From: Amaurobius ferox | Lineage: Eukaryota > Arthropoda > Arachnida > Araneae > Amaurobiidae | DNA length: 64,000 nucleotides | NCBI GenBank assembly: GCA_951213105.1 | Contig: OX578135.1 | Location: forward strand, 158,481,750-158,545,749 | Direction: 5' to 3' | In this document: one piece after another, positions 17,242-64,000 of the stretch | Position numbering within the stretch: position 1 is the stretch's first letter | Layout: each line of letters starts with the position of its first letter | The notes under the pieces: model-generated | Databases searched by the model: none | What the model was told of the DNA's origin: nothing | Seen by the model: only the letters and a program-made list of their open reading frames with translations | Program-made: the position numbers and the translations under genes

Positions 17242-17245
17242 AAAA

Positions 17246-17600: not shown

Positions 17601-17609
17601 TTACAATTT

Positions 17610-18547: not shown

Positions 18548-18552
18548 TTTTT

Positions 18553-25803: not shown

Positions 25804-25809
25804 TTTTTT

Positions 25810-41165: not shown

Positions 41166-41423
41166 TTACATTTTTGGTAACCCTCCTGCTTCCGCCACAG
41201 ATACCCAAAGCATAGACGTTATTCACATGAAAATAAAGCCATTACAAAAATAAACCGTTCTTTATCTTCACAATGAATCTAGCTTATAGGAACTATATCA
41301 ACACATTGGGAATAAATAATTTTCACCAGTTTTTATCTGTGGGATCGTATGGCATGAGGGTTAGAGTGTGTATGTGTGGTGTGTGAGAAAGGGGGCGGAC
41401 GTCATATAATTACATAATTAATA

Positions 41424-42717
41424 AACAAGAAAGATCAATCATGCTTAAAGCATTGATTATGGAACACTTTCCAACTCCAATGCAATTTTATTTACACACA
41501 TCTAAAATGCAATACATTCCTCGGTAATATTTTAAAACTTATCACAATACTACATTAATTTATTATATTTGAAAACTTAAACCTTCATCGAAAAAAATGA
41601 ACTTCATTCAAATGACGGCATTGAAATATAAATTGCCTGGTTTAAACATCTCTAAAATGTGATACATTCCTCGGTAATAATTTTGAATTATCATAATACT
41701 ACGAAGATTTATTATATTTCAAAACTTCATCGAAAACAACTGAAATTCATTCAAATGACGTCATAGAAAAAATAACACGCCTGGCTCTCTCTATAAAAGC
41801 AGCATTTCATTCATACATAATTTCCCATTCATGTCATTCATCACAATACTATAATAATTTATTTTATTTAAAAATTAAGACCGTGGAGCTACAAGTAATT
41901 AAACTCTATGCCTAAAACTTCATCGAAAAAAATCATCCATCTCTTTGTAAAATCAGTGAATATTTCATTCATATCATCTATGCAGACTCCATGAACTAAA
42001 TGATTTTGTGTTAAAGAAATACAACAATTCTAATACAACTCATTCTGCATATTTTGCTGTTTACATTTTACATAGGTGAAAAATAGGCTTCGTTGTAGAA
42101 ATAATCAAATTTGGATGAGAATTTTAACTCAAATATATTGTAATTGAGTTGTTTCAGTATGTAGATGCACAGAATTTAAGCAAAAATAAAGTAGTTTTAG
42201 GACGGATGCAACACTCAATATGAATTAAAAAGAAGTTTAAAAATCACGATTTTGAGACAAGATGGATGCCATATATCATTTTGAGGTGGGTCACGTGATC
42301 GTTTCATATCATGGTCACGTGATCGCTTCATATAAAAGGTGTTATTATTATTTCAATTTTTATTTTAAAAACTACTGAATATATTACGCTGAATTTTTTT
42401 TATATATTTTATGGAACAACTTGAATATTACCTAAAATTTTCGAAGCAATTTGCGAATTTTAAATCCGCTTAAAAAATGCTTGAAAAATTAGGTCCCATA
42501 GGGCTGAATGTATTTCATTTTTTCAACTCGGGTTCAATCAAAAACTAATTGGGTGATATTATTCATTTATATTCCCATAGGTCCTACAGACCGTCTGAAC
42601 AACATACTAAAATTTCATTTTAAGTCATTTTTACGGCAGTTATCGTGCTAACAGACAGACAGACAGACAGAATGAACAAAGTCATAAACACTTTTCAACT
42701 TTGCTGTAAAGTGTTAA
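41424..42717 (+). mobile_element. Family B repeat, copy B3
   Basis: This is a full-length copy with both ends. The subterminal inverted repeat and 3' stem are intact except for a C in the stem side, and a (GACA)n tract lies at 42653-42670. It is closest to B1 and B5 by eye. Confidence 0.7.
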
Positions 42718-43221
42718 AAAGTGGTTAGTTCAGTTCAGCATGTTTGCACCATATTGTTGTTTACCTTTACAAAAGGTTTATTTTTCTAAACACATTTTAA
42801 TTCGGGAATAATATTTTCATTTCTTTCACTAAAATGTTTGGAAGTGTTTTATTGACAAACAGTAATTTGATTACATAATCCTTTGTGATATTTGAGAACA
42901 TTCAACAAATGTTATAGAGTTATAAAAAACTACATATAGAGTGCAAAGTAAGAACTGTCAAAATTGTTAAAATATGCAATATCGCAGACATAATGTTGAT
43001 AGTTATAATTCTCAATTATCTTCTCATTTTAAATATTATCTTTTCAAAAAACACATTTTACATCTCTATATTGTTTGCTACTTAATATTTGCGTTGCCTT
43101 AAAGTGGCTAATGTTATCAACATAATATTCGCAAAAAACATCATAAAGTAGTATTCATATTTTAAGTCAAAGCGCATTTGTAATTAAAATTTCCAGATAT
43201 AAATATGTTTTGATCAATTTT
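42718..43221. other. Spacer between B3 and B4
   Basis: AT-rich, with no recognised feature. Confidence 0.5.
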
Positions 43222-44198
43222 TTAACACTTTATAACATAGTTGAAAGTGTTTATGACTTTGGTCATTCTGTCTGTCTGTCTGTCCGTTAGCACGATAACT
43301 GGCGTAAAAATGGCTTTATCAAAATGAAATTTTAGTATGTTTTTCAGACGGTCTGTGGGACCTATGGGAATATAAATGAATAATATCACCAACTTAGTTT
43401 TGGATTGAACCCGGGTTGAAAAAATGAAATACATTGAACCCTATGGGACCTAATGTTTCAAACATTTTTTAAGCGAATTTAAAATTCACAAATTGCTTCG
43501 AAAATTTTAGAAAATATTCAAATTATGCCATAAAATATATAAAAAAAATTCAGTAAAATATGTTAGGTAGTTTTTTAAATAAAAATTATTTAATATAGGG
43601 AGAAAAACAAATTCAATTAAATTCTGACTCTCGTTATATCCTCCAGAAAGAAAAAAGAGATATATTATATAATAAATATCTTTCCAAGAGTTTAATTATT
43701 TTACATATGAGAAAGGTTTCACATTTTAAAATATATATGGTAGATAATAGTTTTTCAAATTTTTAAATAAAATAAATTATTATAGCATTGAGATGAATGA
43801 AACGATTGGAAAAATGTTCATGAATGAAATGCTGCTTTTATATAGAGGCAATTTATATTTCGATGACGTCATTTGAATAAAGTTCATTTGTTTTCGATGA
43901 AGTTTTCAAATATAATAAATTAATGTAGTATTGTGATAATTTAAAAAATATTACCGAGGAATGTATCGCATTTTAGAGATGTTTAAGCCAGGCAATTTAT
44001 ATTTCAATGCCGTCATTTAAATGAAGTTCATTTTTTTTCGATGAAGTTTTCAAATATAATAAATTAATGTAGTATTGTGATAATTTTAAAAATATTACCG
44101 AGTAATGTATCGCATTTTAGAGATGTTTGTATAAAATTGCATTGAAGTTGGAAAGTGTTTCATAATCAATGCTTTATGCATGATTGATCTTTCTTGTT
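43222..44198 (-). mobile_element. Family B repeat, copy B4, internally rearranged
   Basis: An inverted copy: the stem end is at 43222 and the AACAAG end at 44198. The middle (about 43590-43790) is replaced by unrelated AT-rich text, and a terminal segment is repeated twice (43905-44000 and 44050-44130). It abuts A6 with no base between. Confidence 0.65.
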
Positions 44199-44323
44199 AC
44201 TTTCCTTATATACATAATGTATAAGGAAAGTATTGTGACGGGGTCGAAAATTCGAATTCGAGTTTTCGACGGGAGAGCACGTTTCAAGCATCCCTGATCA
44301 CGAATCAAACATTTTTGAAGTGA

Positions 44324-44377
<54 letters not shown>

Positions 44378-45141
44378 AGTGAGTCTTTGGAGACGATAAC
44401 TGACGAACGAATGGACCGATTCGAACCAAATTTGGTACAAAAATCACAATCCGTAAACACTGGAAGCGTATTGTTTTTATACGTAATCGGATGTTCAGAA
44501 CTCCCCTAAATTTTCGAATGAAATTTTGAAAAATTCGTCAAAAAATCAAAACCGCTAATAAAGTTACGTAAATAGACATTTCTTGTGTAATTTTTCATTA
44601 GAAAACGATTGGCATAAATTTTAGAACCCTAACATGAACCGTTCTCGAGATATTGTGCATTTTTCAAACAAATTATAAAAAAGTCACATAAAAAAAAAAT
44701 TCCTATTGAGAAACATGTTCACTTTTCATATGTAATACCATGCGATAAATTGAGTGACATCATTCTCGCGGATCTAGCTCGTTCCATTCATGAAAAAATA
44801 TGCTTTGAATAATACTTTTGTATTTGAACACCAATAGTCATTTATCTGCTGTAAGAATAACTTTTTTCTTAGTGCATAACGCTTGGCGAGATTTTGGCGA
44901 CGAATTTGGTCGCAAAAATGTCGCCAACTTGGCAACTTTTTTGAAATGTTGCCAAATTAATGAAAATCTCGCCAAATGGATGAAAATGATGCTAAATCAA
45001 TGAAAATGACGACTCATTGTTGAAAATTCAATATCTTGGAAAGAATATTAGTATCTACTATAAGAAAATCCTATTGTTTTACTGTAAAAGTAGTAAATTC
45101 ATTACATTATATAAGGAAAGTCATGTGTTGCCCACATCAGA
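44199..45141 (-). mobile_element. Family A repeat, copy A6
   Basis: A full-length copy with the longest GT tract of the family (about 44327-44377). Its 3' hairpin terminus touches the 5' end of B4 directly. Confidence 0.7.
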
Positions 45142-45779
45142 TTTTTTATACATATTTTCATGTCTACTGAATATCACTATATTCTTCCTGGGAGTTTTCG
45201 TTAACTTTAATAAAATCACCTGTATTTGACATTTTAGTCATGCTGGGTCACAATTTTAACTAACAAATAAAGAAATATCTGCAACTAGTAGCCACCGTCC
45301 AAAATCCATCATTAGATTCCACTTGAAGGAACCCAATTCTTAAGGCATTCTCTAACCAGATATTCCATTCCTGATCAGTATATAATTCCCAGAACCGAAT
45401 CCAGTTTATATTTCCAACCTCAACCTGCGCGTTTTCTTTGCTCAAACACATGTCGTATCCGCTTACACATTGAATATCTTCTTTTACCTCTAACCTCTCC
45501 TGGCATAATCTTCAGTGCTTCTTAAGTACAAACAGTACTCTGCATTTGCGTTTCAAGAGTAGTATCAGATGCCAAAAGATGTAACCCAGTCTCCTCATTA
45601 CTGAATATAATGAATTTTTCAGAAAATTCAAAATCCTTTCCTTCCGTATTCGCGACTTCAAAATTTTCATGTGTTACTTTCGTTTCGTGGGTTACCACAG
45701 TAACACATTCCCCCAACTCACATAAAATCTCTTCTACATTTCCATTCGACTTATTTCCACGTTGTTTCAAAACCCTAGA
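45142..45779. other. Unrecognised stretch beside a dead RT
   Basis: Minus-strand frames of 63 and 87 codons (45260-45451, 45522-45785) have fairly protein-like composition but no family I recognise. They may be the unrelated 3' flank or a decayed 3' part of the neighbouring element. Confidence 0.3.
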
Positions 45780-46620: not shown

Positions 46621-47352
46621 TCCTTTTTTGCTAGATGGGCTTTTGATTTAAACAGTAAAAAAAAATACTGTATAAGATCTACGGTACTGTGTTTTTATCG
46701 ATGAATTGTACATTTGGCGATTTTTCGGATGACAACATGTAAAATTATTTTAAAATACCTAATTAACTTATATTTCGTGCAACTCTAAATCATTAATATT
46801 AATAGCATCCTCAATAAGCGATATAGTCCATATATTAAAATATTTATTAATTCATTCATCTATTAGACGTCATTTTCAATAATTTAGCGCAATTTTTGCA
46901 ATTTTAACGATATTTTTATCAATCTGGGGCGAAATATCGGCAAGTTGGTGATACTTTGCTAAATTATTCGCCAAGTTTGCCAAATGAATCCCCAAGTGTT
47001 ACAGACAAACGGAGAGAAAAGTATTTCTTATATACTGGAAGGTATGCCCGTTATATGACGGAAATTAGAATTTGTGAAGCATTACTTCCCATTTGGCGTC
47101 ATTTTTATCAATTTGGCGACATTTTTGTCACTTTGGCCAAATAGCAGCCAAGTTGGCGACGTCCCGTTAAATTTCTCGATAAGCGTTACGGGCAGAAGTA
47201 GGGAGTAAGGAGAGTTCTGCGCCACTTGAGTGGAGCTAAAGAGCTATATTTTAACATGTAAACCCTCCGAGGCCAGAAAATAAGTGCATCAATGGTGGAA
47301 GTATTCAAGAGCTATGCTCTAACATGGGGAGGTCGTCAAAAGCCGGCACAGT
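46621..47352. other. Spacer with family A-like relics
   Basis: Runs such as TTTGGCGACATTTTTGTCA and CGCCAAGTTTGCCAAA (46870-47170) echo the TTGGCGA blocks inside family A, without its ends. No gene is seen. Confidence 0.4.
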
Positions 47353-47479
47353 TCATAAGATAGGTATGGATAGAAGGATGATGTCATAGAAGAGGGTGGA
47401 GTTTATTACATATGAAGTATTGTTTTTTTTTTGTTTATTTTATTTTATTTTATTTATTTATTTATTTTTTTTAAGTTTT

Positions 47480-48300
47480 CACACTTACAAATTTTTCACA
47501 AAAATATGTTTTTATTCCCAAAAAAGACAAAAAATGTGGATTTTTTGAATGAGTTGAATTTCGGGGATTTTGGGAATTGTAGAATTTCTCTATAGGAAAT
47601 AACATGGGTTTTCACAGTTTTAAAAATTTTTCACAAAAATGCGTATAAATGTGTTTATATTTGTTAAAAAACTGTAAAAAAGCGGCCAAAAATGTGTTTT
47701 CTTTGAATAAACGGAATTGGCCGAATTTTTAAAATTTCAGAATTTCTCTATGGAAGTTAATATGGATTTTCCCACTTTTGCAAATTTTTCACAAAAAATG
47801 TGTGTTTTTACAAAAAAACGGCCAAAGATGTCTGTTTTTTGAATGAGCAGAATTGGCCGAATTTTTGAAATTTCAGAATTTCTCTATGGGTATTAGCATG
47901 GGTTTTCGCACTTTTACAAACTCTTCGTAAAAATGTGTTTTTATTTGTTAAAAACTGTAAAAAGCAACCAAAAATGTACGTTTTTTGAATCAGTTGAATT
48001 TCAGGGATTGTAGAATTTCTCTATGAGAAATAACATGGGTTTTCGCACTTTTACAAATTTTTTGCAAAAAATCCTAAAAATGTGTGGTTTTTACAAACAA
48101 AAACGGCCAAAAATGTGTGTTTTTTGAATAAGCGGAATTGGCCGATTTCTTTTAAATTTCAGAATTTCTCTATAGGAATTAACATGGGTTTTCACACTTT
48201 TGCAATTTTTTCACAAAAAATGTGTGTTTTTGCATAAAAACAGCCAAAAATGCGTGTTTTTGAACAAACTGAACCTCGGGAATCTCGGGAATTTGAGGTT
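47480..48300. repeat. Outer tandem array, left arm (unit about 150 bp)
   Basis: About five units are seen, each with TTTTTGAATGAG, AATTGGCCGAAT, TTTCAGAATTTCTCTATGG, ATGGGTTTTCGCAC and TTTTTCACAAAAA. The CGGCCAAAAATGTG block alternates with shorter forms. It is the mirror of the right-arm array. Confidence 0.8.
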
Positions 48301-48357
48301 GTGTGTATACCCAATGAAGTTGGTAGTCCGCGGGTTGTTTATCGACGATCCACGAAA

Positions 48358-49619
48358 CCATGGAGTTGGAAGGAGGAAAATCTCCATGTTGGGAAAACGC
48401 CAAAACCATTTGAGACAATAATTTAGGTGGCGCTGGCATAAGATAAGTAGTCCGTATTGTCCGTAGTCCCATTTCTATGGCGAAAGGCCTAAAATATTTA
48501 TTTACACCGCCAATTTTGTAAAAATAAATTATTGGGGCAATCCAAATTAGAACTAAAATAATAAAGAATATTCCGAAGTATTCAAAATTGTTTTGCCTTT
48601 CAATTTATTATTATCTCCATATAATATGCACTCTATCCTACAACTATGAAAAAATCTGATGTGGGCAGCACATGACTTTCCCTGCAGACATATATTCACG
48701 TACTCTTTATTTAAATTAAATTTAATTCACTTTTAATACAATTTTCGTTCTCATTTGATAACTGGACTTATTTTCAAAAATGGCTTAGAGAAAACACGAA
48801 AAAACTAAAATATCTCGAGAACGGCCAGTCCTGGTGTAGTGAGGTTGGCCTTATTCTTTTCTTCGTTAAAAATTACATATTAAACAAGCATTTAATGCAT
48901 ATATTTGAGCATACGTATTTCTTTATTTCAGATTTTGGCGATTTTTCGGGCCATTTTGCAAAGAAAATGCAAGTTATTTTTTTCTGAATCGTGCCAAAAT
49001 CTAATCAGCACCAGGGTGTCCTACAAGTGATTTATCTACCGAATTTTGTGAAATTCGGTCCATTAGTTTTTCATCTAGAGTGGATACAAGTTTTTGTGGG
49101 CCATTTCGCAAAAAAGGCGGGTTCTTTTATCCCGAATCGTACCCAAAACTAATTAGCACCAGATTCGCACACAAGTGACTTACCTACCACAATTTATGAA
49201 ATTCGGTCTATTAGTTTTTGAGTTAGACTGAATACAAAATCTGCACAGGCAGACAGACAGACACACACACACAGACGTCGAGCTAAAAATAGTTTTTTCG
49301 TATTCTAGGGGTTTCGACACGTGTAGATCCGTCGAAAACTCGAGTTCCAATACTCGATGATTCCAATACCTTCCCTATACATTACCATGTATTGCAGGGA
49401 AAGTAAAAATACTGGTTCAGTATACTCATAATAAGGGAACCTTCTATTCAAAAATAATCGAAAATACATGTACTAGATACTACGCCTATCTGTTGTGTCA
49501 ACTAACAATAGCAACTACTTTACTAACACTAGCGACACCTAGATATAATTCTCAAAGCATTATGGTATTTTCAAGCATTTCATCCATAGGAGTTTTATCT
49601 CCTTCATTCTAACTCCATG
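48358..49619. mobile_element. TIR element inserted in the left arm, CACGAAA duplication
   Basis: The right arm has an uninterrupted CCACGAAATATTT. The left arm reads CCACGAAAC, then this 1.26-kb insert, then CACGAAATATTT, so the target was duplicated over 7-8 bp. The insert begins CATGGAGTTGGAAGGAG and ends with the inverse of CATGGAGTTAGAATGAAGG, giving short terminal inverted repeats. It encodes no protein. Family A-prime is nested inside. Superfamily unresolved; a hAT-like 8-bp duplication is possible. Confidence 0.7.
48655..49405 (+). mobile_element. Family A-prime repeat (Helentron-like), nested
   Basis: It starts TCTGATGTGGGCAGCACATG like family A, but its subterminal block is ACTTTCCCTGCA. 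The 3' outer stem arm is TGCAGGGAAAGT, its exact complement. The inside differs from family A except for a GACA/CA-rich tract (49250-49275) and the terminal TCGAAAACTCGAGTTCC-type block. Confidence 0.65.
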
Positions 49620-49737
49620 CACGAAATATTTAAGTGGATAGTGTTGCATTCATTTCTATCTTAAAATTCAGAAAAACACTGGAGAATATACCTATTTATA
49701 AAAATTAGTTGAATACATCCATTTCCTCAATAGTAGT

Positions 49738-52700
49738 CTATTGAATATATGTAGATATGTTAGTAAAAGGTAATACTTCTTTAAAAAGGTTGTACCCGCC
49801 ACCACCCGATCCGCATGAGCACCGCGACAAGATCGAAGATATGAATAATTTCTGTATTATAATATTAGTTACAAAAAAAGTATTTTTTTTTTTAAAGATT
49901 GTCCCCACCACCACCAGATACATAAATGCACCGCGACAATCTCTATTTTTTTTATTAATATTTTTCTTTTTTATTTTAAAGTGTCCGTAAGCATAACTTG
50001 TAATGCCGTTCTCATGTAAATATCTTCTGTCATCAATGGGTGACAAGGCCACCTTGCTCTGGCATACAGTGAATAGTTTATGATTACAGCTATCAATTCT
50101 AATCTGCTCTTCCATGGTAGGTCTAACACTCAACAGGCACTGTCTATGATCATTGTGTGTAATTTTCCGTGCAACCACATGCGTAGAAACACCATTAGCC
50201 TTTTCCTTTTCTCCCAAATGATAGAATAGAGTACATTTTGGTCTACGTCCTACGTATAAACTCTTGAATGGGGGTTGAATTCAGTTCACCTTTAAAGTAT
50301 CCAATACGTTTTTCATATTCTTCACTGAAGAGGGGATGGTCCTTGGGATAGTCAGAAAAATCATACAACTGTTTATACTGGCTCATATCTTCATAGATAT
50401 CAGCAGTTTGGATTTCATAGGCCAATGAATCAGTATCGGTAAAGAAAAGTGAAGCTTTTTCACCATATTGGCTTTTAATATGCTTATAATGGAACTCGTA
50501 CATGAGTAGCTTGGACAGCTCCAGGATAGTAAAGTCAACATTAAAATGCAAGGGACGATTCATTAAAATGTAACTCTTTACACGTTCGATGCCCACCAGA
50601 TCTTCGCTAAAAATCCTGCTAGCTTTATAAGCTGGGGATGCCACCATTTTCAGGGCCCACTTTGAAAAATTGACTAACTCAATATTCACTCGATTTCAAA
50701 GATTTTCCATGGTTTTTCCAAACACAGCGTTATTAAGCAATTTAAAGAAATCCTTCTCAAAATTAGTCTTCACAAACTTTATCTTTTCTGTATTAAATTG
50801 TATGTATTTCGCCAACTAAGGCTTCTGATTAAATTTCAAGGCCTTGTGAATTTTCTTGAGTCTTAAACCTAATGATAGGTATAGCTGAAGGTTGCGATAG
50901 TGAACAATATAATGTTTCTTGTCATGTTATTTGGACACCTATTTCGCAGTACTAACGAAATGGCCATGATGTAACTGTTGAACCAACAGTTCAGCATAGG
51001 GGGAGAGCATTTATCAGTCAATTTTCATCCTTTATAATGGTAATCATGTAAGGATTCATTACCCCCCATGGTAATCATGTAAGGATTCAGAATATTCCAG
51101 ATCCACTTTAAATATATACCTCTCTTGAGTATTGTCCATTAGGCTCATTATTCAGGATTCATTCAAATTTTCCATAATATCCATTCAAAATCACCATAGG
51201 GCAGTGGTTGAGGCATTGCCCAACCGTATAGGATATTGGCATTGCGATTGTTAATGTGCTTAGTAGAATCGCAATTTCCCAAATAACGATTATTAGCCTC
51301 AAATCTACGCTGTCTAATCATACATATGCCGCCTCGAATACCGCGTTCTGTCAACAGTAGCATATTTTCATCTGTGAGAAGTTCAAGGGTTTGCTCAGTC
51401 ATTTTCAAGGACGCCTGCCAGACCAATCCAGGGGCGGTCATAAGATGTGCACAGTCTACTATAATGAGATAGGCATAGTTTTAGAAAATTTTCAAAGACA
51501 TCGGCTAATAGTAGAACATCTGTTTCCACATACAGGTCGTGATATTCTCTTAAGCTCCTTATAACGAAGGTATCCCATACAGTTTGTGCATGCAGATAAT
51601 CTTCACTCTTAATATCTTCGCCTTTAATATCATTATGAAATGCAAAAGGTGGAGGTAATACATCTTCATCAAATTTTTGAAATGATGTCTTATAGCGATA
51701 GGCATATACTCCTTTCCTAAGAAGGGCATTCTGCTGTACTGCATCAGGGAAATGTTCTCTTAGAATATGAAACTCACTCAAGTCCAAATGAGAAACTAGT
51801 TTTTCCAGGGAAGCATTCAGAAACTGCAAGCTGCCAATAAATTGTAAACAGACACGGGACCCATCTTTCTTTGAATTCTTAAAAGAGATGTATTTTTTGA
51901 TATTAGTGGCAATCACATCCATTTCAGGATCTTGCAATTCCCCAAGACTCAGCATATTATAATGAGCATCCTAATTTTTAAAATTATGAAACACTACAGG
52001 AATATTAGTGCTTTGCCTATAGTTAAGATTACAGGCATTATGCAGGGCGCCTCTGTAGACTCTAGTCACGTGATTGTGATCACGCACACGATCTGTTTTC
52101 ATTTCACGATGATACACATTACAATGAGTAGCTCTTTGAAAGTCAATCTCATTCTCCTTAGTCATTTTCAGTGGCTTAATATAACGTAATTTCTCTCCAA
52201 GATGCTGTTTTTCCTTTAACAAGTTGTTTAGGAAATGATTCACAGGGTCGAGACCTCGATACATCTTAGCTTGTTTCAAACACTTTCCATCACATGTCCT
52301 ATGATAACATAAGCATATCCGCAAGGCTCATGAATCGCCAGTCTATGCGTGTAAGATCTACTATTCGATGGCTTAGTAGTATCCACTTTAATGAACAGGG
52401 CTTCAAAGTCAGCATAAATTATGAAGGGGATAGAATGCTGATACTGTTTATTCGTAAATTGGAGATATTTCTGATCTTCCGATGACATTTTAATGCGCTG
52501 AGGTGCATGCTCTTTGCAATATTGGGCATGATCTTGTAGAAGTTCATTTTTACTGTAACGATGTAAGCCCCTATAACACACATATTGGTTAGTTATATCT
52601 CCCAGCAAGCGTGACATATTCCTAATCAGTGTATAGTGTTGCTTATCTTCATCACTAAACAACAGTAAATTCGCACAGTCATCATCCTCTCTTTTGGATG

Positions 52701-53764
52701 TATGCAAAGGAAAAATTTCATCATCTTCATATCCATACGCATTTATCTGTATATCATTCAATTTTTCAATCTGAGGAATCTTCACAACTGAGAAAGGAAA
52801 TAGAATATCCCCAAGTTTAAGTTCATTCTCAAGACTTTGGTAATGTGACACTCGATAAGAATGATCTCTACGGGATATATAGTATTTGTGAACAAATAGG
52901 CACCACACCAGACATTTCTCGTCTTCATTTCGAATATTTAACAAAGCTTTCTTGGCAGAAAGTTTTGAGGGCAAGGATATATAGCTAGAAGGTGCAAGGG
53001 GCTTGTACTTTGCACAGAAAACATCTATCTTTCGCATCTTTTGTAAAGTCCACTCAGAGCCTCGGCTAATAGACTCTTCGAATAACTTCAAAATTTTAGG
53101 AAAAGACTCTTCAATATTGTCTGGAAGGGTATCCTCTCGAAGTTCTGTCGCAACGTCTGTTCTAAAATATGAACTCGTTACCTCTTCACCATTTGCAATG
53201 TTACGAATGAATTGTACATATGCAATAAGATACCACTTAATAGATCTGTATTCACCAAGTTCATATTTTAATATCTTCAAAAGCTGAGGGCGAATCTCAT
53301 CAAAACACAACATAACATCCCCCTCTACATCTTCAGTGGGCTCCAGAGTGTGTACAGAGCATACATCTAAAGACTTCTCCACTTTATTCTTGCAACGTTT
53401 ATTAGAAGTTGAGGTTAAAGTAGATGCTTTTCTCTTTTTAGAACCATGTTCAATACGCTGGTGGTGCAGAGCATAATTTTCTTGTTGAATATAAGTTCGC
53501 AATGCTTGCACTTTATGCCATCACTCTGAAGTTTCAAATGACACTTTAGGCTATCCTTTCTGCTAAATTTCATAGAACACTGGGCACACTCTAAAACTTG
53601 AAGGGGAGTATGCGTATTCGCATGTCTAGCTAAGTCCTTCTTACAAACAGATGTACGCTCACACACGTTACATCGATAATTCGATGCATCAACAGAATGC
53701 ATCTTCAAATGTCGCACCAAATTCCTCTTATTCGTATAAAGCTCTTAGTACAAGTAAGACATAC
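49738..53764 (-). pseudogene. Protein-primed family-B DNA polymerase, exon 2, left copy
   Basis: The minus-strand text begins after an acceptor at 53765 with C2H2 zinc fingers (to about 53480), then a basic linker with KKRKAS-type stretches. Next come the exonuclease I motif (YADFEA, about 52401), an HNH/endonuclease VII-like insert (VRDHNH...CNLNYR, about 52070) and exonuclease II (FHNFKN, about 51975). The polymerase palm follows: LLLADVFENF (motif A, about 51490), ILYGWAMPQ (motif B, about 51220) and TDTDSLAYE (motif C, about 50430). The C-terminal block has KVALSPIDD and YGHFK (about 50010). This order matches the protein-primed PolB of Polinton/Maverick, adintovirus-like and bidnavirus-type elements. 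At least five frameshifts or stops separate the pieces. No other element genes (capsid, integrase, ATPase) accompany it. Confidence 0.85.
49786..49942 (-). repeat. Tandem stem-loop pair after PolB, left arm
   Basis: The first unit has a perfect 8-bp stem, AGATTGTC (49896-49903) with GACAATCT (49935-49942). The second unit (49786-49832) has the same loop text (GGTGCTCATG, GGTGGTGGCGG) and an imperfect stem. The pair recurs at 61022-61173 in the right arm. Confidence 0.75.
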
Positions 53765-54065
53765 CTATGAAATATAAAAAATACAAGACTTTAGTATAAA
53801 CTCACTATTTTCTGAAATAATGTAATAAATTTTAATCACTTATTTAAAGTAATCATAGATTTCTTATACCATTCCCATAGCAATCCCCCCCCAAAAAATA
53901 ATAAAATCACTAAGTTACAGAATATATATAGATACTAAAACCTCAACAAATTACATTAAATTCATAAAAATCTTAATTAAATAAAATAATGAAGCTGTTA
54001 CACATCATAAAAATACTAAGTTTAATAAAATAGGAGAATAAAATCACATTAAGACAAGTACTTAC

Positions 54066-54101
54066 ATGCCCAATCCTGTTCAAAGATGTTGCATTAGGCA
54101 T
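54066..54101 (-). CDS. PolB first coding exon, left copy
   Basis: A 12-codon exon (MPNATSLNRIGH) is followed by the consensus donor GTAAGT. It joins in phase 0 to exon 2 at 53764, where the zinc finger begins VCLTC. An in-frame upstream ATG (54158) is closed by TGA five codons later; the same TGA exists in the right arm, so the downstream ATG is the likely start. The exon is identical in protein to the right copy. Confidence 0.6.
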
Positions 54102-54606
54102 AGGATGATCAATAATGGCAGATGTGACATCTCTAGCATTTCAAACTAAAGCCGACATATTCGTAGTAGAGAGCACGTGAAACGCAACCTAGCAGTACGA
54201 AATCCACATCTAGAATCATAAAATCGCAGCTTGAAGGCCATCGTCATCCGCTCCACGTCAAGGTCACCTAAAGGTTATATTACGGTTACCGTTAAACCGA
54301 GTAATATAAGATATAATTACACACACTAACCGATAAAAATTGACAGATCATTCATAATCGCATTCGATACATTGAATAAATTCACGTAGGATTAAAACTC
54401 ATTAAGTTATATTAAAAAGGTAATTACCACCATTACTTCCCCTAATATACAACTTATGCACTAAACGTAACCCTTAGTAATTAGAATCTGTAATAAAACA
54501 TCCATCTCCATTCCAGCACACGTTTAAATACCCGTAATTCTGCACGAAAACACCCGTTAAACATACTTTACAGGAATTCATAAAATGGACATAAAAACAA
54601 TTATAA
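54102..54606. other. Inner arm spacer, left (putative PolB upstream region)
   Basis: Non-coding; collinear, inverted, with 57085-57684. It should contain the promoter of the left PolB copy, but no TATA box is evident. Confidence 0.5.
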
Positions 54607-55980
54607 AACAAGAAAGATCAATCATGCTTAAAGCATTGATTATGAAACACTTTCCAACTTCAATGCAATTTTATTCAAAAAAGTCGAAAATGCAATACAT
54701 TCCTCGGTAATATGTTAAAACTTATCACAATACTACATTGATTTATTATAACTGAAAACTTAAACCTTCATTGAAAAAAATGAACTTCATTCAAATGACG
54801 GCATTGAAATATAAATTGCGTGGTTTAAATATCTCTAAAATGCAATACATTCCACGGTAATATTTTTAAATCTATCATAATACTACGATAATTTATTATA
54901 TTTGAAAACTTCATCGAAAACAACTGAAATTAATTCAAATGACGTCATAGAAAAAATAACACGCCTGGATCTCTCTATAAAAGCAGGATTTCATTCATAA
55001 CTTTCTCCATTTCATTCATCACAATACTATAATAATTTATTTTATTTAAAAACTTCATCGAAAACAACTGAAATTAATTCAAATGACGTCATAGAAAAAA
55101 TAACACGCCTGGATCTCTCTATAAAAGCAGGATTTCATTCATAACTTTCTCCATTTCATTCATCACAATACTATAATAATTTATTTTATTTAAAAATTAA
55201 GACCATGGAGCTACAATTCATAAACTTTATGCTTAAAACTTCATCGAAAAAAATCGTCCTTCTGTTTATAAAATCAATTAATATTTCATTCATATCAGCC
55301 ATGCAGACTCCATGGACTGAATTATTTTGTGTTAAAGAAATACAGTAATTCTAATACAACTCATTCTACATATTTTGCTGTTTACATTTTACATAGGTGA
55401 AAAATAGGCTTAGTTATAGAAATAATCAAATTTGAATGAGAATTTAAACTCAAATATATTGTCATTGTGTTGTTTTACTATGTAGATGCACAGAATTTAA
55501 GCAGAAATAAAGTAGTTTTAGGATGGATACAACACTCAATATGAATTAAAAAGAACTTTAAAAAATCACGAATTTGAAACAAGATGGATGCCATATATCA
55601 TTTTGAAGGGGGTCATGTGATCGATTCATATCATGGTCACGTGATCGTTTCATATAAGATGTGTAATCATTATTTTAATTTTTATTTAAAAAACTACTGA
55701 ATATATTTAGCTGAATTTTTTTTTATATATTTTATGGAACAATTTGACTATTACCTAAAATTTTCGAAGCAATTTGTGAATTTTAAATCCGCTTAAAAAA
55801 TGTTAGAAAAATTAGGTCCCATAGAGCTCAATGTATTTCATTTTTTCAACCCGGGTTCAATCCAAAACTAATTGTGTGATATTATTCATTTATATTCCCA
55901 TAGGTCCTACAGACCGTCTGAACAACATACTAAAATTTCATTTTGATTAAGTCATTTTTACGGCAGTTATCGTGCTAACG

Positions 55981-56014
<34 letters not shown>

Positions 56015-56060
56015 ATGAACAAAGTCATAAACACTTTTCAACTTTGTTGTAAAGTGTTAA
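54607..56060 (+). mobile_element. Family B repeat, copy B5, with internal duplication
   Basis: It carries both family ends and a long (GACA)n tract (55980-56012). A segment of about 140 bp (AACTTCATCGAAAACAACTG to TTTATTTTATTTAAAA) is present twice in tandem (about 54906 and 55049). The right arm lacks B5 and shows the uninterrupted A/T-run target. Confidence 0.8.
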
Positions 56061-56182
56061 AAAATCATCAAATTCACCCATAAACTAGTTAAAACCCTCA
56101 AATTACTCATAATTATCATCTACATATGCTATATAACCATTTATAGCCATAAAAGAGTGAGGAGCCTGTAGACAAGAAAGCA

Positions 56183-56965
56183 GAGTTCACCGCCAGTAGC
56201 TGTGCAAAGCTGTGTAACGGCCACCATCTTGGATTCCGTAGTCCTGAACGAGGAGGTAAAAGGGGGAAATAGAAAAATTTGAGGTGCTTTTAGTGTTAGA
56301 AACTGTCTGCGGGTGGCAAAGGTAGTGGTCTTATACGAGGATATTGTTTTGGGGCTGGATGACTTTATAATGAGGGATGTATAGAAACTTTATGGGGGTG
56401 GCAACGGTTGGGTTTCACCTCCAGTGGTTGTGCAGAACCATCAGCTCCCCCTAGCGGCGGAAAGCGGAACTCTTCAGGATGGAACTTAGAAATATATTTT
56501 GTTTGGCATTTGGATTGCCATAAAAACACCTGGGGGGAAAGAAACTTTTTGGGGGTGGCAATACTTGGGGTTCTGCGACAGAGGCTGTGCAGAACCATCA
56601 GCGCTGTCTAGCGGTGGAAAGGGGAACTATTCAGGGTGGAACTTAGCAATTTTCTCGCTTAATGGGGTCTTTTCTAAGAGTCAGAGAAGCTTTTTGGAGG
56701 TGGCAACGGTTGGGTTTCACTGCCAGTGGCTGTGCAGAATCATCAGCTCCACCTATTGGCCGAAGGTATACTAGTAGGGGTGAAACTTAGAAATTTTGAG
56801 AAAATTAATAAAAAATTGAGTTATTATAATTTTTTTAAAACTTTTTTTAATTTTGCCAAAATATTACATGGATAATACTTTCTAGAAATGATAAAAACAT
56901 ATTTATATTTTTTCCAGAAACTATTTTTAGATAGCATTGCTCCAACCGCATCCTGGCGAACCCGC
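56183..56965. repeat. Central spacer of the palindrome with about 150-bp tandem repeats
   Basis: Three clear units (from about 56393, 56543 and 56693) and a decayed first one share GGTGGCAACGGTTGGGTTTCAC, GTGCAGAACCATCAGC, CTAGCGG and GGAACTTAGAAAT-type blocks (shown here in parts). The DNA is GC-richer than both arms. Open frames here follow the repeat and are not credible genes. Confidence 0.75.
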
Positions 56966-56983
56966 CTTTCTTGTCTACTAGGC

Positions 56984-57684
56984 TCCTCTCTCTTTTATGT
57001 CTATAAATGGTTATATAGCATATGTAGATGATAATTATGAGTAATTTGAGGGCTTAACAAGTTTCTGGGTGAATTTGATGATTTTTCATAATTGTTTTCA
57101 TGTTCATTTTTTGAATTCCTGTAAAGTATGTTTTCGTGCAGAATTACGTGTGTTTTCGTGTAGAATTACGAGTATTTGGACGTGTGTTGGACTGGGGATG
57201 GATGTTCTTTTACGGATTCTCGTTGATAAGGGTTACGTTTAGTGTATGAGTTATATATTAGGGGAAGTAATGGTGGTAATTACCTTTTTTAATTTAACTT
57301 AATGAGTTTTTATCCTACGTGAATTTATTAATTGAATCGGTTACGGTTATTTAAAGGATGTAATAGATTACGATTATAAATGATCTGTCCATTTTTATCG
57401 AGTTTGTGTGTGTAATTATATCTTATACTCGGATAATGGTAATCGTGATATAACCTTGACGTGACCTTCGATGCATTATCAGAACCTAGAAGGCATCCGC
57501 CGACATCCACCGACATCCGCTCCACCATGGTGGGGCAGATGTCGGTGGCCTTCAAACAGCTATTTTATCATTCTAGATGTAGATTTCGTACTGCTAGGTT
57601 GCGTTTCACGTGCTCTCTACTACGAATATGTCGGCTTTAGTTTGAAATGCTAAAGATGTCACATCTGCCATTATTGATCATCCT
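56984..57684. other. Inner arm spacer, right (putative PolB upstream region)
   Basis: Mirror of 54102-54600 and 56075-56165. Includes the uninterrupted family B target (about 57078-57095) and a short direct repeat (GACATCCGCCGACATCCACC-like) near 57493-57520. Confidence 0.5.
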
Positions 57685-57720
57685 ATGCCTAATGCAACAT
57701 CTTTGAACAGGATTGGGCAT
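57685..57720 (+). CDS. PolB first coding exon, right copy
   Basis: The ATG opens 12 codons followed by donor GTAAGT at 57721. The partner acceptor is TTTCATAG at 58010-58017. Phase 0, as in the left arm. The upstream ATG at 57628 is stopped by TGA at 57643, also as in the left arm. Confidence 0.6.
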
Positions 57721-58017
57721 GTAAGTACTTGTCTTAATGTTATTTTATTCTCCTATTTTATTAAACTTAGTATTTTTATGATGTGTAACAGCTTCATTAT
57801 TTTATTTAAATAAGATTTTTATGAATTTAATGTAATTTTTTGAGGTTTTAGTATCTAGATATATTCCGTAACTTGGTGATTTTATTATTTTGGGGTGGTT
57901 GCTATCGGAATGGTATAAGGCATCTATGAGTACTTTAAATAAGTGATTAAAATTTATTACATTGTTTCAGAAAATAGTGAGTTTATACTAAAGTCTTGTA
58001 TTTTCTATCTTTCATAG

Positions 58018-61015
58018 GTATGTCTTACTTGTACTAAGAACTTTACGAATAAGAGGAATTCGGTGCGACAATTGAAGATGCATTCAGATAATGCATCGAA
58101 TTATCGATGTAACGTGTGTGCGCGTGCATTTGTCTATAAGGTGACTTAGCTAGACATTCGAATACGCATACGCCCGTTCAAGTTTTTGAGTGCACCCAGT
58201 GTTTTATGAAGTTTAGCAGAAAGGATAGCTAAAGTGTCATCTGAAACTTCATCTGAGTGATGGCATAAAGTGCAAGCATTGCGAACTTATATTCAGCAAG
58301 AAAAGTGATGCTCTGCAATACCAGCGTATTGAATATGGTTCTAAAAAGAGAAAAGCATCTGCTTTAGCCTCAACATCTGATAAACGTCGCAAGAATAAAG
58401 TGGAGAAGGCTTTAGATGTATTCTATGTACACACTCTGAAGCCCACTGAAGAGGTAGAGGGGGATCTCTTATGCTGTGTTTTGATGAGATTTGCCCTCAG
58501 TTATTGAAGATATTAAAATATGAACTTGGTGAATACAGATCTATTAAGTGGTATCTTATTGCGAATGAGCAATTCATTCGTAACATTGCAAATGGTGAAG
58601 AGGTATCGAGTTCATATTTTAGAACAGATGTTGCGATAGAACTTCGCCACGATACCCTTCCAGACAATATTGAAGAGATTTTTTCTAAAATCTTGAAGTT
58701 ATTCGAAGAGTTTATTAGCCAAGGCTCCGGATGGACTTTAGAAAAGATGCGAAAGATCTGTGATAACAAAGCTTTCTGTGCAAAGTACAATCCACTTGCA
58801 GCTTCGAGCTATATATCCTTGCCCTCAAAACTTGCTGCCAAGAAAGCTTTGTTAAATATTCGAAATGAAGACGAGAAATGTCTGGTGTGGTGCCTATTTG
58901 CTCAGAAATACTATATATCCCGTAAAAATCATTCTTATCGAGTGTCACATTACCAAAGTCTTGAGAATGAAATTAAACATGGGAATATTCAATGCCCTAT
59001 CTCTGTGAAGATTACTCGGATTAAAAAATTGAACGATATACGGATAAATGTATATGGATATGAAGATGATGAAATTTTTCCTTTGCATATATCCAAACGA
59101 GAGCGTGATGAATGTGCGAATTTACTGCTGATTAGTGATGAAGATGAACAACACTATACACTGATTAGGAATATGTCACGCTTGCTGGGAGATATAATTA
59201 AACATAATGGAGCTCAATATGTGTGTTATAGATGCTTACACTGTTAGATTGGAAATTATCTTCTACAAGATCATGCCAAATATTGCAAAGAGCATGCACC
59301 TCAGCGCATTAAAATGCCATCGGAAGATCAAAAATATCTCCAATTTACGAATAAACAGTATCAGCATTCTATCCCCTTCATAATTTATGCTGACTTTGAA
59401 GCCCTGATCATTAAAGTGGATACTACTAAGCCATCGAATAGTAGATCTTACATGCATAGACTGGCGATTCATGAGCCTTGCGGATATGCTTATGTTATCA
59501 TAGGTCATGTGATGGAAAATGTTTGAAACAAGCTAAGGTGTATCGAGGTCTCAACCCTGTGATTCATTTTCCAAACAACTTGTTAAAGGAAAAACAACAT
59601 CTTGGAGAGAAATTACGTTATATTAAGCCACTAAAAATGACTAAGGAGAATGAGTTTGACTTTCAAAGAGCTACTTATTGTAATATGTGCTGTCGTGAAT
59701 TGAAAACAGTTCGGGTGCGTGATCACCATCACGTGACTGAAGTCTACAGAGACGCCCTGCAGAATGCCTGTAATCTTAACTATTAGCAAACCATTAAAAT
59801 TCCTGTAGTGTTCCATAATTTGAAAAATTATGATGCTCATCATATTATGCTGAGTCTTGGGGAAATGCAAGATCACGAAATCGATGTGATTGCCTCTAAT
59901 ATCGAAAATTACATCTCTTTTAAGAATTCAATAAAAGAGGGCACCCGTGTCTGATTACCATTTATTGACAGCTTGCAGTTTCTGAATGCTTCCCTGGGAA
60001 AACTAGTTTTCCATTTGGATTTGAGTGAGTTTCATATTCTAAGAGAATATTTTCCTGATGTAGTGCAGCAGAATGCCCTTCTTTTAGAGTTAGCAAGATT
60101 TTTAGCGAAGATCTGCTGGATATCGAACGTGTAAAGAGTTGCATTTTAATGAATCGGCCTATATACGTTGGGATATACGTTGACCTATATACGTTGGCCT
60201 ATATACGGCCTATATACGCTTTGCTATCCTGGAGCTATCCAAGATACTCATGTACGAGTTCTATTATAAGCATATTAAAAGCCAATATGGTGAAAAATCT
60301 TCACTTCTCTTTACCGATACTGATTCATTGGCCAACTGCTGATATCTATGAAGATATGAGCCAGCATAAGCAGCTGTATGATTTTTCTGACTGTCCCAAG
60401 GACTATCCCCTCTTCAGTGAAGACAATATAAAACGTAATGGATACCTTAAAGATGAACTGAATTCAACCCCCATTCACGAGTTTATAGGACTTAGACCTA
60501 AAATGTACTCTATCATCTGCTGGAGAAAAAAAAAGAGCTAAGGGTGTTTCTATCCATGTGGTTGCACGGAAACGGAATTTGCACGCTGCCACAACTACCG
60601 CCGTGTTCATGCGGAGTACGATCTCGTTAAACATGTGGGTCCGTAAGTCCTTCCGAAAAGTTGGTGGTTGGGGAAGGAGGTTACGGTCCCTGTGGATGCC
60701 TCTCCCACTGGGTTCCGGTCTAAATTGGGTGTCACTTCCCGGCCATCCAATCGGTTACCTTACACCTTTCTGGTAGGTCGGACGGTCTGGGTCTCAACAA
60801 CACAGTGATTATAGACAGTGCCTGTTGAGTGTTAGACCTACCATGGAAGAGCAGATTAAAATTGATAGCTGTGATCATAAGGTATGCACTGTATGCCAGA
60901 ACAAGGTGGCCTTGTCACCCATAGATGACAAAAGATATTTTCATGAGAACGGCATTACGAGTTATGCCTACGGATACTTTAAAATTAAAAAAATAAATAA
61001 ATTAATAAATATAAA
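58018..61015 (+). pseudogene. Protein-primed family-B DNA polymerase, exon 2, right copy
   Basis: The exon opens VCLTCTKNFTNKRNS, a C2H2 finger, and keeps the order of the left copy: linker, a long open stretch 58471-59247 (258 codons), exonuclease I (YADFEA at about 59386), the HNH-like insert (about 59715-59780) and the exonuclease II region. A deletion near 60088, about 1.1 kb relative to the left copy, removes palm motifs A and B. Motif C (TDTDSL, about 60312) and the KVALSPIDD C-terminal block (60905) remain. Other lesions are stops such as TAG at 59245, frameshifts, a run of CCTATATACG repeats (60155-60220) and a SINE at 60597-60807. It cannot be functional. Family call is as firm as for the left copy. 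Confidence 0.85.
60597..60807 (+). mobile_element. SINE copy inside right PolB, 5'-truncated
   Basis: It starts in the SINE body (CCGCCGTGTTCATGCGG), continues through CGTTAAACATGTGGGTCCG and GGTCCCTGTGGATGCC, and ends with the tail GGTCTGGGTCTCAACAAC. The left PolB copy lacks it, so it postdates the arm duplication. Target duplication not resolved. Confidence 0.8.
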
Positions 61016-61021
61016 AAATAG

Positions 61022-61173
61022 CGATTGTCGTTGTGCATTCATGCATCAGGTGGTGGTGGGGACAATCTTTAAAAGAATTACGTTTTTGTAACTAATATTA
61101 TAATAAAGAAATTATTCATATTTTCGAGGTTGTCGCTTTGCGCATGAGCATCGGGTGGTGCCGGCGACAACCT
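61022..61173 (+). repeat. Tandem stem-loop pair after PolB, right arm
   Basis: The first stem is GATTGTC (61023-61029) with GACAATC (61061-61067). The second is a perfect 10 bp, AGGTTGTCGC (61127-61136) with GCGACAACCT (61164-61173). Both loops share TGC-CATG and a GGTGGTG run. Paired changes (AT to GG at the stem base) keep the pairing between units. Confidence 0.75.
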
Positions 61174-61429
61174 TCTTAACCATATCTACAACCATATCTA
61201 CATATAATCAATAGATTACTATTGAGGAAATGGATGTATTCAACTAATTTTTATAAATAAGTATATTTTCTAGTGTTTTTCTGAATTTTAAAACTGAAAT
61301 GAATGCAACGCTATCTACTTAAATATTTCGTGGATCATCAATAAATAACCCGCGGACCACCAACCTCATTGGGTATACACGTCCCCTCAAATTCCCGAGA
61401 TTCTCGAGATTTCCGAGATTCAGCTTGTT

Positions 61430-61960
61430 CAAAAATTCGTTTCTTTAGCCGGTTTTTACAAAAACACACATTTTTTGTGAAAAAAAATTGCAAAAATGTG
61501 AAAACCCATTTTAATTCCCATAGAGAAATTCTGAAATTTTAAAAATATCGACCAATTTTGCTTATTCAAAAAGCACACATTTTTAGCCTTTTTTTTGTAA
61601 AAACCACACATTTTTAAGATTTTTTGCGAAAAATTTGTAAAAGTGCAAAAACCCATGTTATTTCCCATAGAGAAATTCTACAATTCCCGAAATGCATCTT
61701 ATTCAAAAAACGTACATTTTTGGTTGTTTTTTTTTACAGTTTTTAGCAAATAAAAACACATTTTTACGAAAAATTTGTAAAAGTGCGAAAACTTATGTTA
61801 ATTCCCATAGAGAAATTCTGAAATTTCAAAAATTCGGCCAATTCCGATTATTTGAAAAACACACTTTTTTGGCCGCTTTTTTACAGCTTTTTAACAAAAG
61901 AAAAACACATTTATACGCATTTTTGTGAAAAAATTGTAAAAGTGTGAAAACATAAAAACA
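61430..61960. repeat. Outer tandem array, right arm (unit about 150 bp)
   Basis: Three to four units, mirror image of 47480-48300, with the blocks CCCATAGAGAAATTCTGAAA, GGCCAATT, AAAAACACACAT and TTTTTGTGAAAAA. Confidence 0.8.
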
Positions 61961-62061
61961 GAAAAAATAAGCAAAAAATCATAAAAAAAACCAATACTTC
62001 AAATGTAATCAACTCCACCCTCTTCTATGACATTATCCTTCTATACATACCTATCTTATGA

Positions 62062-62587
62062 GATCATACCTGATCTGTACCCCCTATAACAGATCAGTAC
62101 CCATTCTTAAAACAAATCGCGACTTCCTACGTCGAGAATCAACCGAATAAATAATCCACTCCCTATACATATATAGATTGTCGAACTCGTTATTATATTG
62201 TACCGTAATTTTTTGGACACTTTCGATCTGGAGAATCAGAATTTTTAATTAAATTGATTTTAATAATAACAGAAACTTTTGACTTGATACAATGTTAAAT
62301 AAGAAATCGGTTCCTTTTGGAAACAAGATGCACATCCGTTTGGAGTCGATATTCTTTCGGGTCAAATGATTTTTTTTTTATTTCAGTCAAACTATGCATA
62401 TGCATGATTAATTATCGGTGTTCATATTTTTAATTTGCTTACAGCATTCACCAAATGGTACACTTCTCAGTAAGGCACGTTTTAAACGATAGTTATTAAT
62501 ACTTGTAGCAACTGTTTACAGCGATTGCTGTGACTACTGATAAAAAGATGGCCATGTAGTACAGTTGGATATTTCTAAATTTTTCAG
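62062..62587. other. Spacer before the peptide-repeat exon
   Basis: No coding sequence is seen. It would be the 3' end of the intron, with acceptor TTTTTCAG at 62580-62587. Confidence 0.45.
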
Positions 62588-63111
62588 ATAATCTTCAAGA
62601 TGTGCCAGACTTGGAAATGCAAAGGGATGAGACTTTCATCGAAGAACAGATCACTATGATGGCAGACGGTTTTGAACAAGACACTCCATTTCCCACTGTG
62701 ATGGACTACGGCGACGACCTGTTTACTGGGCCTCCAGTGATGTCGGATAACGAACGACAGATTCCACCTGTTTTCCCGTTCAATATGACGGATAACGAAC
62801 GACAGATTCCACCTGTTTTCCCGTTCAATATGTCGGATAACGAACGACAGATTCCACCTGTTTTCCCGTTCAATATGTCGGATAACGAACGACAGATTCC
62901 ACCTGTTTTCCCGTTCAATATGACGGATAACGAACGACAGATTCCACCTGTTTTCCCGTTCAATATGACGGATAACGAACGACAGATTCCACCTGTTTTC
63001 CCGTTCAATATGACGGATAACGAACGACAGATTCCACCTGTTTTCCCGTTCAATATGTCGGACAACGAACGACAGTTTTCTACAGTGTTCTCGTTCAATA
63101 TACTGAACTAA
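62588..63111 (+). CDS. Secreted multi-copy peptide precursor, terminal exon
   Basis: The exon follows acceptor TTTTTCAG and starts two bases into a codon, which fits the phase-1 donor at 38547. It reads NLQDVPDLEMQRDE, then an acidic stretch rich in Glu, Asp and Met to about residue 50. Next come seven perfect 45-bp repeats (62758-63072), unit QIPPVFPFNM(T or S)DNER, and one decayed unit. Each unit ends Asp-Asn-Glu-Arg, which fits the processing quadruplet motif (Arg preceded by Glu within three residues) used in spider venom precursors; cleavage would leave N-terminal Gln, able to cyclise. Acidic propeptide plus repeated units suggests several identical mature peptides. A TAA ends it; a poly(A) signal lies at 63366. 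Function and tissue unknown; a structural repeat protein is an alternative. Confidence 0.6.
62758..63072 (+). repeat. Seven 45-bp coding tandem repeats
   Basis: Units are identical apart from ACG/TCG (Thr or Ser) at one codon, so they were homogenised recently. Both strands lack stops inside the unit, giving false antisense frames. Confidence 0.95.
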
Positions 63112-63371: not shown

Positions 63372-63727
63372 ATGGGATGAATCTAACATGACTTTTCTGT
63401 GAACTTTCTTGTATTTTGTCGTTCCTATTCATTGAATGTACTAGCTCATACAGGAAATGGATACACATTTGAAATGACATCGCATATGCAGTTTCCAATT
63501 TACTTTTCTTTTCATTTAGCACTCTTTAGAAAGATGCTACCTTTTCAAACATTCCGCTAATAATGAAAAATAAAAATTTCAAGACCAAATTATCTATTAT
63601 TTAGTGGAACAGATATATTTTTTCTTATACCCCATATAGACAAAATCCCATATAAACGAAATCACTTATCTCATCAAAGTGAAAATAACATTTATATTAA
63701 TTAATCTGCGAGAAAAACTGCTTTTTT

Positions 63728-64000
63728 ACTTTCCTTATGTACATAATGTATAAGGTAATTATTGTGACGGGGTCGAAAATTCGAATTCGAGTTTTCGACG
63801 GGAGAGCACGTTTCAAGCATCCCTGATCACGAATCCAACATTTTTGAGGTGGTGTCTGTTTGTGTATGTGTGTGTGTGGGAAAATATGTGTGTGGGTGTG
63901 TGGGTATATCAGTGAGTTTGTGGAGACGATATCTCACGAACAAATGGAGCGGTTCGAATGAAATTTGGTAGAAAAATCACAATCCGTGAAAACTGGAAGC
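63728..64000 (-). mobile_element. Family A repeat, copy A7, cut by the window edge
   Basis: The 3' hairpin end (ACTTTCCTTATG...) starts at 63728, followed by the GACGGGGTCGAAAATTCG block and a GT-rich tract (63855-63905). It continues beyond 64000. Confidence 0.7.

Follow-up and report, generated by a model that had tools for sequence, protein, structure and literature searches.

The window analyzed here is a 64,000-nucleotide stretch of the genome of the spider Amaurobius ferox (contig OX578135.1, positions 158,481,750 to 158,545,749). Two mirrored arms within it each carry a zinc-finger/HNH/PolB gene, PolB being a family B DNA polymerase, and the two genes point outward from a shared center. 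This arrangement had been described in a first-pass annotation made from the sequence alone, and it is borne out by inverted matches and by tblastn pieces of the gene in both arms. The PolB frames are broken in both. The structure is an old, decayed member of a large family of palindromic PolB mobile elements, with hundreds of relatives in this genome.

The inverted repeat pairs in the window include I1 (869 nt, 92%) and I2 (369 nt, 95%), and the outermost pair, I20, joins 47353-47451 to 61963-62061 (86%). When the window was aligned with itself (BLASTN), the arms proved to be inverted as claimed, with the longest match between 51719-54256 and 57530-60083 (90.9%, 2565 columns). Further matches join 49617-50158 to 60800-61335 (86.7%), 54260-54608 to 57084-57468 (78.9%), 56060-56191 to 56955-57086 (91.7%) and, inside tandem repeats, 47353-47971 to 61436-62061 (72.9%). 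The point changes, the 1.1-kb deletion and the separate insertions said to distinguish the arms were all found (Table 1). The order of the arm parts is conserved overall, as had been stated, but it is interrupted by a left-only insertion, a right-only 226-bp repeat and the right-arm deletion. The center had been called repetitive. A real center with repeats of about 145 bp exists, but much of the region so described is an unrelated 1.46-kb repeat. Inverted arms do occupy the annotated extent of 47353 to 62061; the left tip, AGTAGGGAG, however, lies 156 bp beyond that start, at 47197. The outermost 150-165 bp or so of the right arm is absent or replaced past 62061-62072.

Table 1. Parts of the palindromic element in the window (positions in the window; tblastn pieces are against an intact relative).
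Feature	Position	Strand	Remarks
Left arm from its tip to the unrelated insertion	47197-54605		Tip AGTAGGGAG; homology to both L041 ends; inverted match to right arm
Left-arm terminal ~157 bp, no counterpart in right arm	47197-47353	+	
Subterminal ~136-bp tandem repeats, left	47476-48273		
Left-only 1.26-kb insertion	48358-49616		Match edges 48357-49617; absent from right arm and L041
Left PolB gene, decayed	49978-53801	-	6 tblastn pieces in shifting frames
C2H2 zinc-finger frame, left	53415-53744	-	
Longest surviving frame, 414 amino acids	52276-53520	-	N-terminal region through exonuclease motif I
Endonuclease-VII-like HNH stretch, left	51971-52327	-	E 0.0012, below curated cut-off (Pfam)
Left-arm stretch whose right-arm counterpart is deleted	50627-51718		Part of the polymerase palm
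Unrelated inserted repeat, 1.46 kb	54606-56063	+	Outside the element proper
Left arm, inner end	56060-56191		92% inverted match to 56955-57086
Single-copy center	56192-56954		Related sequence at other genomic sites; three ~145-bp repeats at 56383-56797
Right arm	56955-62072		Inverted match to left arm
Right PolB gene, decayed	58003-60992	+	9 tblastn pieces; lacks residues ~704-1047
Endonuclease-VII-like HNH stretch, right	59475-59786	+	E 0.0061, below curated cut-off (Pfam)
Right-only insertion with 226-bp dispersed repeat	~60571-60800		
Subterminal tandem repeats, right	61440-61951		

A young copy of the family spans two adjoining stretches, L048 and L049. It is about 12.6 kb long, with tips near L048 1512 and L049 6121. 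Its arms, of about 6 kb each, are 99.68% identical over 5601 bp, enclose a single-copy center of about 624 bp and make up about 95% of the element. Positions 1172-5029 of L049 hold an open frame of 1285 amino acids (aa), or 1253 aa from the first ATG, and the first zinc finger of this frame lies upstream of that ATG. The frame in the other arm has a shorter C-terminus (1221 aa open, 1189 aa from the ATG). Statements about absent genes refer to this one whole copy. Inside it, all stop-to-stop frames other than PolB are 115 aa or shorter. The right end is overlapped by a frame of 162 aa, about half of which lies outside in a TA repeat, and nothing longer spans the junction of L048 and L049. No frame was found for an rve integrase, a capsid protein, an ATPase or a protease, nor for the hexon and chromodomain integrase of adintoviruses or the transposase of a fold-back or long-terminal-inverted-repeat transposon. 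PolB is the sole gene found. The lack of capsid, ATPase, protease and integrase genes had been noted as a difference from Polintons, which holds for this copy; its ends, on the other hand, are Polinton-like.

The gene combines zinc-finger, OTU, exonuclease, HNH and PolB parts in one frame per arm, with four zinc fingers followed by the OTU-like part. When a structure model of the protein was used for a fold search, the nine best PDB matches were all phi29 DNA polymerase, and fold matches also suggest OTU-like and little-finger-like N-terminal domains. The catalytic residues of the exonuclease and the polymerase are conserved in 45 aligned sequences. The modeled fold thus supports a phi29-like polymerase of the protein-primed clade, in agreement with the first-pass annotation. 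The protein is 52% identical to the PolB of the Parasteatoda house spider adintovirus (P0030), and its close matches include zinc-finger PolB genes of Uloborus diversus, Larinioides sclopetarius and Araneus ventricosus. A classic Polinton-type PolB family is also present in the same genome, at 85 places (L006, for example), with frames of up to about 1520 aa, many of them without stops.

The assembly containing the window (3.56 Gb, 276 contigs) was searched with the surviving 414-aa frame, and the best 101 of 4923 candidates were scored; the proportions given here refer to these. They form 39 adjacent pairs and 23 unpaired matches. All 39 pairs are divergent (-,+), mostly with gaps of 3.4-3.6 kb. 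The window itself is one of the unpaired matches, its partner not being among those scored. At 20 of the other 22 unpaired loci the partner position was read over 2.4 kb, and an inverted partner was found in 13. Of the remaining loci, L063 has the outer repeat only and L059 a same-strand copy, while L050, L056, L058, L061 and L068 show no partner in the 2.4 kb read where it was expected. Palindromes therefore account for 53 of the 60 examined loci (the pairs plus the loci read), and two further loci lie outside this count. A DNA search with an inner arm segment (best 40 of 2077 candidates scored) gave 30 loci, or 25 places. Six of these places are (-,+) match pairs, and eight more contain a second inverted arm piece within 1.5 kb; two of the eight (L021, L022) appear to duplicate each other. 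L018 has an inverted self-match of unassigned content, and L011, which L041 contains entire, combines a single gene with the two outer ends. Nine places allow no call either way on 1.5 kb; for one of these nine, L012, no inverted partner was found in the 10 kb of L042. The palindrome is the usual inserted form of the family.

Some loci depart from this form. L041 (C18:139915700-139925699) and L063 each keep the outer repeat in one arm without the gene, which looks as if it had been lost from a palindrome. L087 (C18:11094600-11101000) has a related but inside-out inverted structure, in which the outer-end repeats face each other and center-like sequence lies outside; the standard element does not account for this order.

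The ends of the element were examined across the genome. A search with 130 bp of the tip (best 40 of 869 candidates scored) returned matches that are 99-100% identical. Allowing at most two mismatches, a 22-base pattern of the tip occurs 275 + 272 times, and the reversed control 0 + 0 times. Among the first 100 tip matches listed, 38 adjacent pairs within 25 kb are all (+,-) and 24 matches are single; the pairs have a median span of 12,673 bp, with 30 of the 38 between 12 and 13.5 kb. Nine of the ten PolB pairs on C1-C5 are enclosed by a tip pair. The ends of young copies read AGTAGGGG...CCCCTACT, that is, AGT...ACT with terminal inverted repeats. Both ends were read at eight palindromes besides the young copy. 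In seven of them, both tips are readable; at the eighth, no tip lies within the stretch read. An exact 6-bp direct repeat was found just outside AGTAGGGG...CCCCTACT in 7/7 informative palindromes (TCTAAG, CACGTC, TACGAT, TACATA, ATTGAT, AATATG and AGCATA), and when the left flank of one locus was paired with the right flank of another, 0 of 42 combinations matched. The young copy lies in a TA repeat, so its target duplication is uninformative. The single-gene copy L041 has the outer boundary of an older subfamily and, by eye, a degenerate 6-bp duplication. The available text of PMC8097293 gives 6-bp duplications, inverted repeats and AGT-type ends as Maverick features, with a doubled AGT commonest at vertebrate Maverick ends; the element described here has a single AGT. 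The inserted unit is the whole palindrome in the seven cases read. Since the target duplications flank the whole palindrome, the palindrome predates insertion.

These results bear on two explanations of the window. The first-pass annotation had favored a replication relic, a single inverted dimer fixed head to head at this locus. The window-level picture, taken by itself, would fit such a relic, but for the family it is refuted by the 39/39 divergent pairs, the 53/60 palindromic loci, the 7/7 duplications of the whole unit and the 275 + 272 tips, and we give it almost no credence. An assembly artefact or independent neighboring insertions appear just as improbable. Palindromes in assemblies call for general caution, and we found nothing else in favor of this explanation; in their longest match the two window arms are about 9% divergent, the structure occurs on many chromosomes with different flanks, and the sequence of the exact 6-bp duplication varies from locus to locus. 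Had the window arisen from chance neighbors, all other copies might have been single-armed, which the genome search did not find (53/60 palindromes). Because the structure recurs across the genome, a chance origin of the window palindrome is excluded.

The relationship between the two arms was followed in young and old copies. In the outer 330 bp, the two arms of one young locus show 0-2 differences in 8 loci, and the median difference between loci is 5.6% (mean 3.9%). The inner 500 bp or so of the arms was compared for six pairs, with pair F left out. The arms are reciprocal best matches in 5/6 pairs (4/5 old ones and the young one), and in the four old reciprocal pairs identity is 0.944-0.986 within the locus and at most 0.917 to the best other arm. 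Ratios of nonsynonymous to synonymous substitution rates (dN/dS) were obtained from NG86 counts on the frames as they stand. Between L049 and other copies, dN/dS is 0.08-0.26 (old ones 0.19-0.22). Between the left and right arms of one locus, it is 0.70 in the window (dS 0.116), and 0.63 (dS 0.112) and 0.88 (dS 0.101) in two further cases. Judging from these ratios, the PolB gene is constrained in the mobile lineage, and the arms of one landed copy most likely start identical and then decay almost freely, like long terminal repeats (LTRs). Constraint between copies, together with near-neutrality between arms, therefore suggests that the arms were probably identical at insertion.

It is possible that the arms are kept identical by host gene conversion after insertion and not by replication. 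Inverted repeats are known to convert, and the arms of young copies are nearly identical. However, older copies have diverged, carry unshared insertions and deletions, and have an arm dN/dS of 0.63-0.88. Conversion therefore does not keep the arms alike for long. Duplications of the whole unit further mean that the palindrome existed before insertion, although early conversion would still be compatible with them. We regard gene conversion as an unlikely explanation.

The element can be compared with several known systems. Palindromic defective adenovirus genomes contain a large inverted duplication in a protein-primed replicon, and fold-back transposons have very long inverted repeats. The present element resembles both in these respects, but differs in being an abundant genomic palindrome with its own polymerase. 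With Polintons/Mavericks, as far as the excerpted sources describe them, it shares the 6-bp target duplication, the AGT...ACT ends, the terminal inverted repeats and the phi29-like PolB fold. It differs in lacking integrase, capsid, ATPase and protease frames, in inverted repeats that cover about 95% of the copy and hold the sole gene, hence twice, and in its length of 12.6 kb, compared with typically 15-25 kb for Polintons in the excerpt of PMC6431247. With adintoviruses it shares the 52% PolB identity and the N-terminal OTU-like fold; the accessible part of PMC11071296 includes both an N-terminal OTU-like domain of PolB and a chromodomain integrase in the adintovirus definition. In contrast, the element copy has neither hexon nor chromodomain integrase, and four zinc fingers precede its OTU-like part. 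Integrase-less Polinton-like viruses are, in the accessible part of PMC4642659, proposed to use a resident Polinton integrase in trans. The element is likewise integrated without its own integrase; that part of the source deals with virus-like elements, however, and describes no palindromic unit with PolB alone. In integrase and capsid genes, the element thus falls outside the Polinton and adintovirus definitions, and in ends, duplications and polymerase it falls within them. It is a PolB-only, palindromic, Polinton-type mobile element, and is best read as derived from Polintons/adintoviruses. No description of this layout was found in the literature searched, in line with the earlier suggestion that it may be undescribed.

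We propose, with considerable confidence, that this is a PolB-only element with long inverted repeats, normally palindromic, which is replicated by its PolB and borrows an integrase in trans, probably as a satellite of Polinton/adintovirus-like elements. Two inverted arms of about 6 kb, with one outward PolB gene each, are joined by a single-copy center of 0.6-0.8 kb that perhaps acts as a shared divergent promoter. Starting at the ends of an extrachromosomal linear form, the PolB may copy the element by protein priming. The strand displaced in this process is self-complementary and could form a panhandle or fold back on itself; one arm would thereby template or correct the other, and both would be identical at integration. 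An rve-type integrase from resident Polinton/adintovirus-like elements would then insert the element in trans. Such a satellite probably keeps its replication autonomy while giving up integration and capsid genes.

Possible relatives and integrase sources were identified. L070, an IMG/VR contig, has a PolB that is 38-41% identical to the element PolB and adjoins an rve integrase, and a Pox_A32-type ATPase gene lies on the same contig. The matches to an rve integrase in the spider genome (best 129 of 8398 candidates scored) mostly lie in open frames of about 280-370 aa. At L088 (C18:50260000-50265200), the one such locus read, the integrase combines rve with a chromodomain, and its neighbor has relatives in spiders, none of them virus-named among the matches listed. 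By eye, the integrase of L088 is followed by open frames that appear capsid-like, and the gene row looks virus-like. The score and frame length of this integrase are shared by many integrase matches in the genome.

A defective-interfering origin is a further candidate, though a tentative one that we hold to be rather less probable than not. Here, the palindrome would have arisen by snap-back duplication of one adintovirus/Polinton end (inverted terminal repeat + polB), with a helper virus supplying everything else, including the capsid. The virus-like relative L070, with its related PolB, integrase and ATPase, is consistent with this origin, as are the integrase-bearing, virus-like gene row of L088 and the 3' end of the PolB gene, which faces the terminal repeat. 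Conversely, no helper with the same ends was seen among the matches listed and in the one integrase locus read, and the dN/dS of L049 against other copies suggests that the element's own polymerase, not that of a helper, is used. This explanation addresses where the element came from and how it is packaged, and can stand alongside the borrowed-integrase satellite proposed above.

A genome search with the L070 PolB (best 36 of 7861 candidates scored) revealed a second PolB family, defined here by its PolB frames and pair orientation. Its 10/10 adjacent pairs are (-,+), with gaps of 3.6-4.1 kb in nine and 1.6 kb in one, and 16 matches are unpaired. The frames are mostly 1221-1255 aa long (C13:102562444 and 35 other places), and the protein is 46% identical to that of the first family (650-bp piece of L089). 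It is conceivable, at somewhat less than even chances, that both represent a distinct class of self-replicating palindromic replicons, in which a near-perfect palindrome is selected, the polymerase copies a self-folded strand, and both genes are regenerated in each cycle as in LTRs. With two polymerase families of one genome showing this form, the architecture would then be either ancient or repeatedly favored, and the members would be satellites on the integrases of resident adintovirus/Polinton-like elements.

Several points weigh against the proposal of a palindromic satellite with arms identical at insertion. PF03175 was not called on the element protein even at E 0.1. The searches scored the best candidates only (101 of 4923), which limits the proportions to those, and at 7/60 examined loci no inverted partner turned up in the 2.4 kb where it was expected. 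The arms are strictly closest to each other in only 3/8 young loci, with four ties, and one L077 arm is closer to another locus (1 vs 2 mismatches); on young copies alone, a recent burst and identity at insertion cannot be told apart. Among the old pairs, B narrowly fails the reciprocal-best-match comparison (0.900 vs 0.902/0.913). The arm dN/dS is below 1 (0.63-0.88), and other old copies compared with the left arm of the window give 0.43-0.52, so the contrast is graded; this is as expected if both decay after a constrained phase. No AGTAGGGG tip occurs in the 5.2 kb of L088. Among the matches listed, no integrase lies within 30 kb of a palindrome PolB match or within 20 kb of a tip. Lastly, no replication intermediate, terminal protein or mobilization was seen for the element, and its integrase source is putative.

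Other repeats occur in and around the element. The repeat at 54606-56063 has further copies at 26982-28294, 41416-42720 and 30870-32044, and an inverted copy in pieces at 43209-44198. These are 1.1-1.5 kb long, with 144-bp internal repeats and, in two copies, a GACA run near one end; by eye, the family looks Helitron/pearl-like. L041 is nested within another copy of it. The 226-bp dispersed repeat is found in the window at 60577-60802, 15506-15749 and 24134-24206, and also within several further members of the palindromic family (L028, L031, L038, L039 and, twice, L040). A repeat family of about 950 bp has six copies in the window (16318-17245, 17606-18552, 18547-19483, 20697-21604, 24873-25809 and 44194-45148) and a seventh, cut, at 63723-64000. 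A LINE (long interspersed nuclear element)-type endonuclease/reverse-transcriptase frame lies at 10851-12848 (-), and the neighboring 640-aa frame at 12955-14877 has no Pfam match. At 62740-63101, an in-frame 45-bp tandem repeat in 8 copies forms a 15-residue repeat in a 183-aa frame.

Polintons and adintoviruses, as described in the excerpted literature, carry single-copy gene sets between inverted repeats. In the element described here, the inverted repeat extends over almost all of the sequence, and there are two copies of the replicase. Arms that were identical at every insertion would provide an LTR-like clock for a DNA element, and would make it possible to test, from genome sequence alone, whether inverted repeats of protein-primed replicons are maintained in concert. 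The element might also help to explain the many annotated zinc-finger/PolB proteins without a virus label in spiders, molluscs and cnidarians, although this is speculation. If the proposal is true, self-replication by the element's own PolB has been split from integration, which is borrowed, and this would bear on the interconversion of Polintons, viruses and linear plasmids.

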